From Diplosphaera chodatii (lineage: Eukaryota; Chlorophyta; Trebouxiophyceae; Prasiolales; Stichococcaceae), in contig JAALGY010000012.1 in the NCBI GenBank assembly GCA_032358165.1, forward strand, positions 2,170,001-2,234,000: a DNA stretch of 64,000 nucleotides. Direction: 5' to 3'. The notes beneath the pieces were generated by a model. It made no database searches, was not told where the DNA came from, and worked only from the letters and a program-made list of their open reading frames with translations. The translations under genes were made by a program, and so were the position numbers. Of the stretch, positions 179 through 8,230 are shown piece after piece; position 1 is the first letter of the stretch; each line of letters opens with the position of its first letter.

Positions 179-3100
179 ATAGCCATGACTAGCAACCATC
201 AGCATGCAAGTGGGACCGACATAGCCTCCAACAGGGCTACAGGGCTGGACACACAAACAATACTTGATATGTTAGCGGGATACTCACCCGAGCTGTTTGT
301 CTTGGTGAAGGATGTGTTGCAGGAGCCGAAACTTAAGTGCGACTCGGAAGCAGCTGCTCTCAACAACCTTATACATGTCATCCTTGAACCATCAGACGAG
401 ATACTGCTTTTGTGGTCGAAGGAGTACGATACTGGCAATGACATGGTGGCCCATCTTGCTTCACACCAGCATGTACTGCCACATCTGCAACGTGCCTTGG
501 TGCAACAGCTGCCACATGTCACAGCAGCCAGCCCGTCGCACCCTGATTGGCTACCTAACTCCCAATTATCATTTGTGCTATGGAACTGCAGGAAATTTGA
601 CCCACAAAGCTTGTTCATGCATGACCTACTAAACAAATTTCAGCAACGCCCTGCGGTCATTGTACTGACAGAAACAAAGCTGCGAAAGCAGGACCTTAGG
701 AAGCATTGGCTGCAGGCACAGCTGCCCGGCTATAGATTGATTGGGTCTTGCCACCCTAATTCTACAGCCATCAGATGGGCGCCCTCACTTCCGAAGGCTC
801 AGCGGCAGGGCAAGAATTCCACTGAAGCCGCGGCCAACAGCACTGCCGCACGCGCCTGTGCGGGCGTGCTGCTGGCAGTCCAGTCCGAGTTTGCAGAGCA
901 GCACTTGCTGCAGGTACACCAGCCGCCACCCACCTGCAGGGATATGTCTGCCATGTCAGCATCACGCTGCCAGACAATCAGCCGCTCCATGTCATGGCGG
1001 TGTACCAGCCCAACCATGCTGGTTGGAAACCTGTGTGGGCGGACATCAAATCATACATCACCTCTGCTAAAGAGACTGCAGTTGCAGCAGGCAGCAGGCT
1101 GCTCCTGGCCGGGGATTGGAACGGTGTGCAGGCCCCTGCAGATAGAGGGCCGCATCCTCACATGACGCAGATGGACAGAGCATTTGTGGCAAACATCGAT
1201 GCGCTGGAGTTGCAGTCAGTGTTTGCGGATGACAACGGCAGACTTGGTCCACAACGCCGCCAGCCATCCTATGAGCGTGTGTGCAAACAGGGCGTGGAGT
1301 CGAAATCAAGGATCGATGACTTCCTGTGCATGCGCAGGTGTGGGCTGGCAACGGCTGCCAGGCGCATGGAGCAACCACAACTGATCACTGATGACTTCAC
1401 AAGGTGCTCTGATCACAGGCCGGTGGTCCTGCACCTGCGCTACGGCGACGTGTTCTCATGCCCCCCGCCGCAGCGTGCGCAGCGCCCAGCCCCACGCCCA
1501 GGCCTCCAGCGGCCGCTCACTGCGCTGCAGCTGCAGCGCTTCCAAGCGGGCATGCTGGCACGCTCAGGCGTTGCAGCCTCTGCTGCGGCGGCCCACTTCA
1601 AGGCGCTGGCAACATCCACCACCGCCGTGTCGGAAGGTGACAGGACTGCCTGTGACACCAAGATGGAGCAACTCGTCATTGACTGCATTACTGAGGCCAC
1701 TCAATGCGGCGGTGACTTCACACCTCCTAAGACAACAGAGCTGCAGGGCCACAGGGCCAAACGAGCATGCCCTGTGCATCTGACCCGCACCCAGCAGTGC
1801 CGTTATAATGATGCCTGCAAGAAAGAAAGCCTGTGCAGATCGTTCCATCGACTCGCGGTGGAATGTCAGAAGGGGCAGAAGACCCCAGAGTGGCTACAGT
1901 TGCATACAATAACCCAGGAGTACTCCCAGGTCTTCCCAGAGCTTGCAGGGCCCTTGACAACGATGGCAGAGGCGGAGCATGCACGCGCAGCCGCCGCCGA
2001 ACGACTGGACCAGGAAAGGGCCGCAAAGCGGGCGGTAGTTCAGGAGCAACGCGACCAGCGTGCGATGGTAGAGCACAAGCTATACCACAAGAAGCGGCAG
2101 CTCTCCATCCGGAAGGCGAACCAGTGGGTACTCGGCAAATCAGGCGGGAACACAGGCCAACCACCCGGGGCTATGTCGGTTGCTAAACACGTGCTATATG
2201 GAGCAGTCACAAACCCTGCGCTAGTGCAACAGGCACATGTCCAATACAATGCCAAGTTGGCAGCACCTGTGGTTCCCACGCAGACGGCCGCTGCCTACCC
2301 CTGGCTGCCCGGCGGCAGCCTGGATCCACTGCTGCTGTGCGCCCGCGGGGAGGACCGGCGCCTTCGCCACCGCCTCACGCCTGAACTGATGCACACCTGC
2401 GTACGCACACTGGCAAATGGTAAGGCGGCGGGCGCTGATATGCTGACGAACGAGATGCTCAAGCACCTGCCTCAGCCACACCTGGACATGATATTTGCAT
2501 ACTTCGAGCTGTGCTGGGCCACTGGCAAGACGCCAGCCAGCTGGAAGCACAGCGAGACAGTGCTGTTTCACAAGAAGGGTGAGGTGTCAAATCCAGCCAA
2601 CTATAGGCCGATTGCATTGCATCTGACAATATACAAGCTTTGGACCAGCATCATCACACAGGTGCTGCAGGGGTATGCAGAGGAGGTCGGGATGATCAGC
2701 AGCGCTCAGGAAGGCTTTCGCAAGTACCGCAGCTGCGAGCGGCAGCTGCAGCTGTTGACGTGCGTCATTGAGGATGCGAAGCTCAGCAAGAAAAACCTGT
2801 TCCTCCTCAAGGTGGACTTCTCTTCTGCATTCTCCTCAATAGATCATACTCGCCTGTTTAACATCATGGCTGACCTTGGATTCCCGGCAGATGCGGTGCG
2901 GGTAGTGAAAGATTTATACGCTGGCGCAACGACCAGCATCTCCACATCAGCCGGCCAACAGGATACGATCCGCATCAAGAGGGGTACGATTCAAGGAGAC
3001 ACGCTCTCACCTTTCCTGTTCCTCATCTTCATTGAGCCGCTGCTGCGGTGGCTGAAGGTTGGCGAGCGCGGGTACCGCTGCGGGAGCGTGCCTGGTCCGG

Positions 3101-4639
3101 CATGGCGTTGGCGCCCTCCAAATGTGACGCGTCAGGAATTTTGCATGGTGCCGCAGGGAGCTCCACGGACTGGACCGTGCTGCAGCCGCTCCTGCCAGGA
3201 GAGCAGCTTGGCTTCAGGATGAAGTCGCTGCTGCCGGCGTACGCGCGGTTGTCAGGGGAGACGCTAGTGCACGCCCTGGACGACAGGGGGCAGCTGGGTG
3301 CCCTCACGCGCGCTCTGGCATGTGCCCACCTGCAAGCACAAAACAAATCTGGTGAGCTGTTCACGATGGCCAGGCCCAGCACGAAATGGTTGAAGTATGC
3401 CAGGTCCGCCATGAGCCTGAGAAAGGCAGCCTGGGTCCGCAAGATGGAGCTGCAGGTCGATATGCCCCTACAACCATACAGCCGCGCTGCAGGCAAATCA
3501 GACCTCTCAGAGGTGGTGCATGATGCAAACAGAATGCATGATGTTTACGGGGACGTTGTGAGCTTACATGTTCACATTTTGCAGCCACTATGGGAGCTGA
3601 GAGTTTTCAACCTCCACCAGTTGGTGGCGGTGTCAGCAGACTGTCAGCATATATTGAGCTGGCGCAGGGTACAGACATGCTTTCCACAGGCTGGGAGAAC
3701 TCAAAAGAAGGCCATCTGGCTGTTGACCCAGCTTCTTTGCAGTGGCAAGTTCAGGCTGACAGACAAGGCTGCTGAGTACGAAAGGGTTGGGCACCTACCT
3801 TTCCGTCTGGATCAGCGCCTCCTGCCACGGGATCTCTGGGTGGGAGTGCCGGCGCACGCACCAGCGGCACCGCCAGCTCCACAACAGCGACCCCAGCGAA
3901 CAGCCGGCGGTTTGCCGTGCAACATCACCGCCCGCCTGGTCAACCTGCTCCAGGTGGACACAGTCCTAGGTGAGCACACTACTGCCACAGGCAGCCATGT
4001 CTATGCAGTCAAATGGCGCCCTACCAACATGATCAAGTTGACGGATTATAAACACCTCATCAGGCTCGGGTTTCAACCGAGCATCCCCCCGCAAAACGAC
4101 CCAGCCACAGGGCAGCCGCCACGCACCGTGTCGGCGCATTGGCACGACAGCTTGAGGGCGCCCGCCAGCCTCGTGGAAGGAGGGTGGCCGTCCCAGGTGA
4201 ACGCCTATCTTGCGCTGAAGGCGGGAGGGGGTGCAATGCGCGCCAGCAGGAGGAAGGCGGCGGATGAGGCTCAGGGTGTGGACGGTCGCGCTCCAATGCA
4301 GCCCATTCCCTCAAGCCTGCTGCAGGGCAGAGTGAGCATTGATAGGCGCGAATGCAATCCAGATAGGGATGTCGAGCCAAGTGGGGCACACCATCTGGCA
4401 CGAGTCTCGCAAGCACGCATCTATGAAAGCTTTGACAATGATGGCTGCTATGCAGGTTCCTTGTTGGAACACAAGGCCAGAGACCTGCATAAGCTCTTTT
4501 GGCATGCAGCTCCTCACCAAGAAAACGGCACCGGGTTTGGTGCTGCAGTGCACAACCTGCTGCTACGCAGCCGCATCGGCAGAGCGGAGGCGCGAACCAG
4601 AACGTACGCACGCGACAACTGGTACCTGCCGGGCACAAT

Positions 4640-5115
4640 CAGGACAAGTGTCCAGAGCACCTTCCAGTCGCAGACTGAATGGTTTGCATCACCATTGACC
4701 CACTGCCAGTGCTTCGCCCAATATGCAAGCATGGATATGCATGATCAATGCTTTGGCGCACTAACAGATGCATTCAAGTACCAATGGACCGGCTCAGGGT
4801 ACTTCAACCCACCTGCACAGGAGGCGGTGACGGTTGCTGCGGTGAAGTGGGCGGTGATGGCCACCAGGTCGGGCACGCCCACCTGCAATGTTGGCATCAT
4901 CCCAGACTTTGGGGACATGCATGGTATCAACACGATGATCCGTGAGCACGACTGTATTCACGTACTGTGCAGACTGCCAGCAGGGTGCCTGAAACTGGAG
5001 GATGAACATTTCTGGCACAACAAGCAGCGGGCACCGGGGCGCCTCAAGTTTGGAATTAAAGTAGTGATCATCGCCAATGCACAAGGGTTCGAGAAGTATG
5101 CACGCAGGGCCAAAC
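4640..5115 (+). other. PCIF1/CAPAM-like N6-adenosine methyltransferase domain inside LINE ORF2
   Basis: Within the 3048-7232 frame, about residues 530-690, the order of motifs follows the catalytic core of PCIF1/CAPAM, the cap-proximal m6Am methyltransferase. It has FASPL (4679-4693), then an FG...DAF segment, then NPP (4806-4814) at the place of the catalytic NPPF box. A hydrophobic strand ending IPDFGD, a CRLPAG segment and a VVIIANAQGF strand follow, as in the family. The fourth residue of the box is Ala rather than Phe. The domain sits between the RT thumb region and RNase H and is open throughout this copy. I matched it by recalled family motifs only. Activity, substrate and a role (capping or modifying element RNA, or evading surveillance) are inference. 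Confidence 0.65.
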
Positions 5116-6129
5116 TCGAGGACCAGGAGGAAGCCATAGATGGCGTAGTTCGGGGCAGAGGATCATGGGTGTGGTGTCCGAACATGACCAGCCCGGGCCC
5201 GCGGCGGAGGCCGCCATCACAAGCATTCACGAAGGCAATGATCCCGCCTGCGCCAGGTATACACCCACCTTTCATCACAGACCACTCGTTTGAGGCGGCC
5301 ACAATGCCAATGCAGCCACGAGCATTCCCAAACCCCAAGGACGTTGCATACACAGACGGCAGCAAGAAAGGCACATCAGTCACAGGTGCTGTCGTCCAAG
5401 AAGCTGAGGGCATTGAGATCTCAGTGAAGATGCAGGATCATGCAGGGCAGCTCAACACATGCCTGCATGGGGAGCTCGGAGCTATCCACCAGTGCCTCAC
5501 AGATATGTCTGGCCTCCGCCACAGGGCCAGCGATACACTGATGACAGACAGTCAGACGGCACTGGACCTCATCAGCATTGGCCTGCATGCACCAGAACGG
5601 CTGAGAGTCAATAAACATAGGGATATCGTGCTGCAGATCGCCCAGATGGTTGCAGCATGGCCCCGCCAACTCCACATGCACAAGGTGAGAGCACATGTAG
5701 ACATCACAGGCAACACGCAGGCTGACAAGCTTGCTAATGAAGCGCACACCGAGCAATTTCCGCAGATATTTGCGGCAGCTGGCGAGGCAGGCCGCGGCCA
5801 GCACTGGATCATGTACACGCCACGGGGCACTGGAGGAGCGGCGGGAGCTGGCGACCCGTGGGCTGTCAACAACCTCAAAGGCCACGTCCTGGCGTTGGCG
5901 ACAGCTGCACAAGGGAAACAGGTACTGCATAACTCCAAGCATTCTGTCATCAGGCAGATCAACCACCTGCTTGAGCACGATGACGGCATTGCCACAAGCA
6001 TCTCGAATGCCTTCTGGTGGCATCGACACCTGACACCGCTGGAGATGCACAACGCCATGCACATCCGATGCCACCGCCTGCATACCAAGTGTAGAGACGC
6101 CAGATGGGCAGGGACTGCCAGCGCTCTTC

Positions 6130-6760
6130 TGAATGCTATATGCCCCCTATGCAAGCGTTCAGCAGATGATGCTCAACATGCGCTGGGGGAGGAATGCTTG
6201 CACAATGACGTCAGGCCACTCATCACCGCAAGGCATGACATGGCGGTAAGGGTTTGCTGGGACGCGCTGAAGATGGGCGAACACGGTGCACTGCCTATGT
6301 GGACTGACCTTGATCTTCGGTCCAAGTCACAGCGGTCGCAGGGACGACCACGGCGGAGGAAGCTCCCCAGCTTCTTGCTGGACCGCTCTGCACAGCACAG
6401 CATTCCTGACATCGTAGTGATGCAGATGCATGACGACTTCGAGCCCAAGGATGCGCACGGGAACTTGGTGGAGAAGTTGGACTGGTTGAAGGCCCATGGG
6501 GACCATCCCTGGGACCGCTTCCCCAGTGACAGAAGCAAAGTGACCATTCACCTGCTGGAAGTGAAGTACACCTATGACTTGCAGGTCCACGCCCTGGTGC
6601 AGAAGGCGGAAAGGCAACACTCTGGCCTTGCTGCTGCAATGACCACCAAAGGTTGGGGTGCAGTGAAGGTGCACCCCATCATCATTGATGCAGCAGGCAT
6701 GATGCGGCAGAAGACCTGTGATATTTTACAGGAGCTGGGAGTATCACCAATTGCTGTGAC
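6130..6760 (+). other. Zinc-finger-like cluster plus PD-(D/E)xK restriction-like endonuclease of the LINE
   Basis: A C-x2-C-x7-H pattern (CPLCKRSADDAQH, from 6142) lies just upstream of PDIVV (6406-6420) and LLEVKY (6553-6570). The PD...ExK spacing is that of restriction-like endonucleases of R2/NeSL/Dualen-type LINEs, which nick target DNA for target-primed reverse transcription. With the N-terminal APE domain this gives the element two nucleases. Function is family knowledge; the key residues are visible. Confidence 0.7.
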
Positions 6761-8230
6761 AACCGTGCTGACCAAGTTGTCTCTGGACAGCATCAAGCAC
6801 ACCTCGCAGATAATTACGAAGAGACGCCCCTACCTCAGCCGTGAAGGGATCGACTCGCACGGCGGCCCTGGAGCAGAGGAGGAGGAGGAGCAGCCCCACC
6901 CTCCGCCTGACATGCCAGCACCCGCCAGCCGCCGCGCGCCCAGCCGGCGCACACAAGGATCCCCGATGGAGTCAGCCACCGCCGCCCCTGCCCGTCGTGA
7001 CATGACAACTACGAGTACTAGAGGCAGATGCATTGTACTCACACAGCCTGCATGTGAACAGATGCTGCAGCATCACACAGCAGCAATCAAGATGGACCCT
7101 GCTGATGCTACGCCATGGCGCCTGCGGGCAGTTTCTGATGCAGTTCTGAGCCCTGCTGTACTACCCCGCAGGTCAAAAACGACAGGCAGCCAAGCCAGCA
7201 AGGTATCAAGACGGTGCACCACCCAGCAGTGATGAAGCTGAGGCTCAGGAGCAGCCCATGTCGTGTGCACCTGAGGGTGCAAAACGCCTCAAGTTGCCAT
7301 CACCGGCAGCAATTGCGTCATCAGTGCAGGACATTGCACACACGGACAACGATGGATCCTGCGGGGGTACCGCAGATGAGTCCCAGCTCCGCAGGAGCAC
7401 CAGGGAGAGGCGGCCCAGTTCGAGGGCCGTGGCAGCATCAGCACCTGCGGGTGCCGGCGATCGGGGCGAAGTGCCCCTGAAGAAGCGCTGTGCACAGTCA
7501 CAGCTGTCGCTCCAGCACGGCCGCAGGCCGCAACGACAACGGCTTGATACCTCCATGGATCAGCGACAGACCCCTCAGGACACTGCTTCGCGACATGCAT
7601 GCATTGCTGCCTCATTGTACGCACATGCTAATGACGAGCATGGGGTGGGACACCGCCCAAAACGTGCCCGCAAGGCTCCAGCCAGATTTGACGAACTCAC
7701 CTTTGCCCCGGCTTCTGAGGCACAGGATACGACCACACGAAAGACGCCCTCTGCTCGAGTTGGAAGGGGCTCCCGCCGCTCCCAGCATCGATGCCGCTGC
7801 CACGCCTCGGTTCGAGCCTCGCCAGGGCGTCGCAGCGCCCCGACACAGGCCGACAGCCGCAGAGCTAAGACTAATTGCTTGCCATCGCTTTACTCCCAGT
7901 CTGCTGAGCAGCATGTCACCTCGTGTATGGGCACTCCTGTGTCCCCTGCCCAAGATGATGGGCTGCCATTCGACAGGGGTAAAGAGTCGCCCAGATCTGT
8001 GAAGCGAAAACGCAGTGCACCACACTGATGTTGCTTGTGTTTGTGTCTTCAACCTGTAGGCAGGGAGACCTGCCGAGGGATGGCAACCTGAGACCCAGTG
8101 GCTTGATGATATATTGGGCCTGGACTTCTCAAGTCCACCAGCTGGGAATCGGGATAGTCATCGCTTTATTCACGCTGGCTGCCTCCTAATCGAGACACTT
8201 TGCGTCGTACTTTCTACTTTCTAAGCGCCG

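Follow-up and report, generated by a model that had tools for sequence, protein, structure and literature searches.

The cap-specific RNA methyltransferase PCIF1 (CAPAM) is described as restricted to eukaryotes and as carrying the motif NPPF (PMC8868631), and the fly protein, in which the phenylalanine of this motif is replaced by histidine, is described as inactive (PMC9479742, PMC9916840). Among mobile elements, an adenine or cytosine DNA methyltransferase has been reported in a brown-algal DNA transposon (PMC12477816), DIRS1 encodes a methyltransferase-like (MT) domain in the order reverse transcriptase (RT)–RNase H–MT (PMC3266345), and an orchid Ty3/Gypsy element has captured an RNA-modification enzyme of the AlkB type (PMC9289625). 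Here we describe a copy of a Dualen-like long interspersed nuclear element (LINE) in the green alga Diplosphaera chodatii, located in a window of 64,000 nucleotides (positions 2,170,001 to 2,234,000 of contig JAALGY010000012.1, here contig C10 of a genome of 85.6 Mb in 55 contigs). Between its RT and RNase H, sequence profiles and predicted structures confirm a diverged relative of PCIF1's C-terminal half, and this captured core probably persists as an RNA-handling module of the element that is non-catalytic or strongly altered.

The element domain resembles PCIF1 in its class I fold and motif order, in an E-x-FASPL motif, in a G-S pair before motif IV and in an N..G motif after the last strand. 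It differs in its motif IV (NPPA, SPPA, NPEY or HPPH versus NPPF) and in being fused to RNase H. In addition, a Pfam scan of the element frames gave no match to a WW domain, and the N-terminal helical half of PCIF1, with the arginines for the 7-methylguanosine ribose of the cap, was not matched, the modelled part (from 4356) matching human PCIF1 from residue 424 on. As in the fly protein, for which a methylation-independent role has been suggested, the fold is kept and the catalytic aromatic residue replaced, but fly PCIF1 is a host protein that binds the C-terminal domain of RNA polymerase II rather than part of an element polyprotein, and the HPPH and SPPA forms of the element also lose the asparagine. 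DIRS1-like elements similarly place a methyltransferase-like domain of unexplained function next to RNase H in a retroelement polyprotein, although these are tyrosine-recombinase elements with a domain, reported as DAM type, after RNase H, whereas the domain described here is of PCIF1 type, precedes RNase H and belongs to a LINE. The orchid AlkB is likewise an RNA-modification fold captured by a retroelement, but it is an eraser encoded by an additional open reading frame and active in vitro, while here a writer fold lies within the pol frame and is probably inactive. With RT and RNase H by profile, and motifs of a restriction-like endonuclease (RLE) and an apurinic/apyrimidinic endonuclease (APE) by eye, the element resembles Dualen/RandI LINEs, in whose descriptions, as far as they were compared, no PCIF1-like domain is named. 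Among the titles listed by literature searches that joined PCIF1 with retrotransposons or LINEs, none places PCIF1 in a retroelement, though an earlier mention is possible.

The PCIF1-like domain comprises residues 437-724 of the frame 3048-7232 (1394 open codons), or window positions 4356-5219. The original prediction, made from the sequence alone, had listed FASPL, NPPA, IPDFGD and VVIIAN as occurring in the order of the PCIF1 core, and they do so at 4683, 4806, 4899 and 5061 of this open frame. The interval it gave, 4640-5115, spans the methyltransferase core, while structural homology extends wider, to about 4413-5141; read from base 4640 the sequence is out of frame and contains stops, the coding frame being that of 3048. 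Pfam profile PF12237 (PCIF1_WW), the sole family matching this stretch at E <= 10, scored 30.7 bits (E 2.8e-7) on the domain alone, just below its cut-off of 31.1, and 27.3 bits (E 3.1e-6) on the whole window protein. A six-frame search of the whole genome returned the window locus as the only match at E <= 10, above the cut-off at 32.0 bits (one candidate scored), and on these three scores family membership may be called a borderline pass. The match covers residues 481-603, somewhat further in the genome search, and includes FASPL and NPPA; alignment with PCIF1 continues past it to IPDFGD and VVIIANAQG. The same genome search gave no separate host PCIF1 that could have been the donor, although an exon-by-exon search of this kind could miss a strongly split gene.

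Pairwise alignment was weak, the real score being reached by 27 of 2000 shuffles for human PCIF1 and 7 of 2000 for zebrafish PCIF1, so that the case for homology rests on profiles and structure. Similarly, PDB sequence searches with the whole protein, the domain and an alignment (A1) returned no PCIF1 at E <= 10, which speaks against a close relation and made profile and fold comparisons necessary. The modest pairwise score and the lack of PCIF1 in the PDB searches would agree with motifs that had fallen into this order by chance in an ordinary RT–RNase H connection domain, an explanation that is extremely improbable and is ruled out by the profile, genome-wide, profile–profile and fold tests. 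When an alignment of five element proteins (P0001, P0003, P0004, P0006 and P0015) was compared with one of 21 animal-type proteins, hhalign gave a probability of 95.5 and an E-value of 1.6e-8 for this single comparison over 210 columns, and reciprocal HMMER searches recovered four of the five element and 20 of the 21 animal-type proteins at E < 0.01 (Z = 1e5). A low-confidence model of the domain made without any PCIF1 row had three PCIF1 chains as its only PDB matches at E <= 1e-3 (Foldseek). PCIF1 headed all four fold lists, and in two of them the first neighbour after it was the N6-methyladenosine (m6A) rRNA methyltransferase RlmJ (in the VIA lists, a family that goes unlisted is not thereby excluded). 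The PCIF1 fold was nearer than those of other m6A enzymes, clearly so for the model made with PCIF1 rows, of which residues 20-262 align with human PCIF1 424-668, and more weakly for the element-only model. The original proposal that a class I methyltransferase domain of PCIF1 type lies between RT and RNase H is thus borne out by PF12237, hhalign and fold matches; the possibilities that no class I methyltransferase would be matched, or that a plain RT connection domain would match better, were put to the same comparisons and fell away.

Related domains occur in other proteins. Searches of viral and prokaryote collections gave no confirmed relatives, a protein search with region 440-750 of P0001 gave none at E <= 0.01 among 1167 candidates, and one with the 311-residue domain gave a single protein (P0002) at E <= 10 among 764. 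A further alignment (A3) gave 343 proteins at E <= 10 from 7994 scored candidates, the best 120 of which were used; as its query included a human PCIF1 row, the presence of PCIF1 among its matches is no evidence, and P0003, P0004, P0006 and P0015 were judged by Pfam instead. P0003 and P0006 exceed the PF12237 cut-off (36.5 and 40.1 bits) and are fused to RNase H. P0004 and P0015 fall below it (29.9 and 21.2 bits) and gave no RNase H or RT profile match, and they also have the NPDRD segment found upstream of the window domain. Mutual identity among the five element domains is 32-62%, and in a tree they lie on one side of a branch with 100/100 support, opposite 22 PCIF1s, which suggests a single capture of the PCIF1 core but no more than suggests it, because the branches are long and the tree holds no protist PCIF1. 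P0027 was considered as an element protein and dismissed as an ordinary PCIF1.

The catalytic box is where these domains depart from PCIF1. Seven element sequences were compared (the window copy, a second long copy on contig C47, a copy at C10:2461 kb, P0003, P0004, P0006 and P0015), and none has NPP[FY]: the window copy has NPPA, C47 has SPPA, P0003 and P0006 have NPEY, and C10:2461 kb, P0004 and P0015 have HPPH. Of the retrieved PCIF1 proteins, 112 of 114 have NPP[FY] (105 NPPF, 7 NPPY; the others are one NPPS and one HPPY), and none has any of the element boxes. These 114, with many animal names and several isoforms or near relatives, are 121 records minus the five element proteins and minus P0002 (a metagenome piece) and P0058 (84 amino acids), which do not include the motif IV stretch and were left out of all counts. 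The two host variants are from Diaphorina citri (P0074, HPPY) and Pseudonaja textilis (P0060, NPPS). The alanine is common to the window and C47 copies, which are 85% identical over 118 residues, NPEY to two proteins 62% identical, and HPPH to three that are 51-54% identical. Because such diverged sequences have the same replacements, the changes appear to predate these copies and to have become fixed in their lineages, and decay of a single copy, raised earlier as one of two options for the alanine, is not the best reading; the Asn-to-Ser change of C47 alone may be decay.

These replacements bear directly on whether the element writes m6A. We consider it unlikely that the domain is an RNA N6-adenosine methyltransferase still active through a relaxed or re-worked motif IV. 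In that case it would mark the element's own RNA internally rather than at the cap, thereby stabilising or disguising the transcript. Such an enzyme would fit the retention of E, FASPL and N..G in all five element proteins, the asparagine and aromatic residue still present in NPEY, and RlmJ as nearest fold after PCIF1. It would also fit the statement that m6A on L1 RNA facilitates retrotransposition (PMC8324889) and the working m6A demethylase of the orchid Gypsy element (PMC9289625). The form this might take, at similarly low odds, is a LINE lineage that writes m6A on its own RNA by means of a captured PCIF1 core no longer dependent on the cap, with re-worked boxes, NPEY above all. Against it, NPP[FY] is missing from all seven sequences, HPPH, which like the reportedly inactive fly protein has histidine at the fourth position, has lost the asparagine too, and NPEY lacks the third-position proline. 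An internal m6A writer with a changed box is possible but less likely than a role in holding RNA, and a writer of N6,2'-O-dimethyladenosine (m6Am) at the cap is the least likely of the three, because the domain lacks the catalytic box as well as the cap arginines. A review names a glutamate, alongside two helical-domain arginines, among the contacts of the cap ribose (PMC11550742); placed two residues after the box (human and zebrafish numbering differ by 5), this site is E or D in six of the seven element sequences, while the arginines fall outside the matched part of the domain. The working cap-adjacent or internal writer of the original prediction thus finds no support, although the identity and placement of the domain do.

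Across the domain, 73 columns are nearly invariant in 18 PCIF1s. Sixteen of these are retained by all element proteins with coverage at the column, including E + FASPL, G-S, the first proline of the box and N..G, and 36 by none. A Dam-type DNA N6-adenine methyltransferase as in DIRS1, acting on element cDNA or host DNA, could be imagined from the DIRS1 domain order (PMC3266345), from reports of green-algal DIRS and Gypsy elements that encode DAM/DCM (PMC6338049) and from a weak match of P0006 to PF05869 Dam (14.9 bits, E 0.022). It is nonetheless very improbable, as P0006 scores 40.1 bits with PF12237 against 14.9 with Dam (cut-off 28.1), there was no Dam match in the window protein or the whole genome, and PCIF1 comes first in every fold list.

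The PCIF1-like domain is under purifying selection. The ratio of nonsynonymous to synonymous substitution rates (dN/dS) between the window and C47 copies (Nei-Gojobori with Jukes-Cantor correction) was 0.27 for the methyltransferase part, 0.48 for the helical part and 0.34 for both together, compared with 0.31 for RT, 0.16 for the stretch after RT, 0.20 for RNase H and 0.31 for RLE. The linker before RNase H (1.44) and the tail (0.64) gave higher values, as did the methyltransferase stretch when read out of frame (1.84 and 0.93). The domain is thus constrained like the neighbouring enzymes while its catalytic letters are not. That it is a relic, a captured methyltransferase drifting without function, is improbable on these values and on the 16 PCIF1-invariant columns kept despite 32-62% mutual identity, although the variable catalytic letters, the frame changes in the window copy and a copy on contig C13 without the whole stretch 4240-5923 would agree with it.

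Taken with the replaced boxes, this constraint is most readily accommodated by a non-catalytic or strongly altered module. A Dualen-like LINE frame would have acquired, between RT and RNase H, the last part of the helical domain together with the class I methyltransferase, the two making up the C-terminal half of a PCIF1-type protein. The domain would no longer be mainly an N6-adenine methyltransferase, and is probably instead an RNA-gripping, possibly still S-adenosylmethionine-binding, module that would keep the element's RNA, or an RNA–DNA hybrid, in place between polymerase and RNase H. Several points weigh against this. RNA gripping is a proposal only, and the domain is close to charge balance (33 K+R versus 29 D+E), with no strong positive charge for RNA binding. 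Retained E + FASPL, and NPEY with its asparagine and aromatic residue, leave room for catalysis, and motif and activity are not matched one to one, since honey bees have NPPY yet are reported to lack m6Am (PMC9479742). The sample is seven sequences, three from one genome, with the C47 and C10:2461 kb copies damaged, and P0004 and P0015 count as element proteins from common segments only. The dN/dS values were obtained for one pair of copies, each of them partly decayed. As for the fold, confidence in the element-only model is low, Foldseek scoring also uses sequence letters, and in one fold list five of six PCIF1 entries stand just 1-2 Z units above RlmJ.

Table 1 Features of the LINE copy and its PCIF1-like domain (window positions)
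Feature	Position	Strand	Basis
Counterpart of C-terminal part of PCIF1 helical domain	4356..4676	+	Structural alignment; dN/dS 0.48
PCIF1-like class I methyltransferase domain	4677..5219	+	PF12237, hhalign, Foldseek/VIA fold matches; dN/dS 0.27
E-W-FASPL motif	4677..4697	+	E + FASPL kept in 5/5 element proteins; FASPL at 4683
Motif IV, NPPA (codons AAC CCA CCT GCA)	4806..4817	+	
IPDFGD, counterpart of PCIF1 (F)IPEWR	4899..4916	+	
VVIIANAQG strand and N..G motif	5061..5087	+	N and G kept in 5/5 element proteins
LINE copy, minimum span common with C47 copy	539..8221	+	blastn versus L007, 80-87% identity, three blocks
Frame with first part of APE-like endonuclease	179..1165	+	Exo_endo_phos E 0.091, weak
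Reverse transcriptase (RVT_1)	2569..3057	+	PF00078 E 3.9e-20, profile 2-142 of 205
Conserved segment before PCIF1-like domain (VKW..P / SL..WP / NPDRD)	3915..4355	+	Aligned with P0004, P0015
RNase H	5343..5744	+	PF00075 E 3.7e-10
Zinc knuckle C-x2-C-x8-H-x5-C	6141..6197	+	By eye
RLE motif PD...EVK	6405..6569	+	By eye

The LINE copy fills the first 8.2 kb of the window in three overlapping frames (179-1165, 826-3222 and 3036-7232) and is broken, because its reading frame shifts twice, once inside the endonuclease, where the APE-like motifs GDWN / SRIDDF / SDHRPV carry on by eye in the next frame, and once at the RT end, which is damaged near the change within 3036-3222. Of its Dualen-type parts, RT and RNase H are matched by profile, and the APE and RLE motifs are read by eye only. 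Window 826-1530, window 3915-4400 and the RLE stretch 6405-6569 gave no Pfam match. A zinc knuckle of the kind present here is typical of RLE-bearing LINEs.

Other copies are found in the same genome. The C47 copy is 80-87% identical to the window copy at the DNA level and contains stops; about 260 bases of the segment 3915-4355 are gone from it and present in the C13 copy. That C13 copy (L027, C13:2930501-2934500, and C13:2935111-2935733) is about 90-94% identical to the window copy, has RT pieces upstream, and lacks, besides the PCIF1-like domain and RNase H (window 4240-5923), window 6921-7438. The copy at C10:2461 kb is a damaged, distant relative of the window element, and further fragments lie on C28. 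A 5'-truncated copy (L026, C10:2816001-2821000) is 96.9% identical over 2169 bases, suggesting fairly recent activity. A weak match was also seen on C46 (E 0.43, one frame looked at). In a genome-wide RT search, with 150 of 237 candidates scored, most were LINE copies 28-31% identical, many with 1171-residue frames and often clustered within one stretch of a contig (for example C15:1742-1786 kb, C52:987-1038 kb, C24:885-929 kb and C22:1342-1415 kb). Such clusters resemble the Zepp-type centromere clusters of Coccomyxa.

The core of PCIF1, which is treated as a eukaryotic host enzyme, occurs in polyproteins of LINE type with three kinds of motif, and joins the unexplained MT of DIRS1 as the second sort of methyltransferase-like domain in retroelements. 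If the active-writer reading were true, this would be an epitranscriptome writer encoded by a retroelement. On the reading preferred here, the element domains, selected but with the catalytic box replaced, may be regarded as natural separation-of-function variants, and would reveal the role of the PCIF1 fold in the absence of methylation, the question raised by the inactive fly protein.
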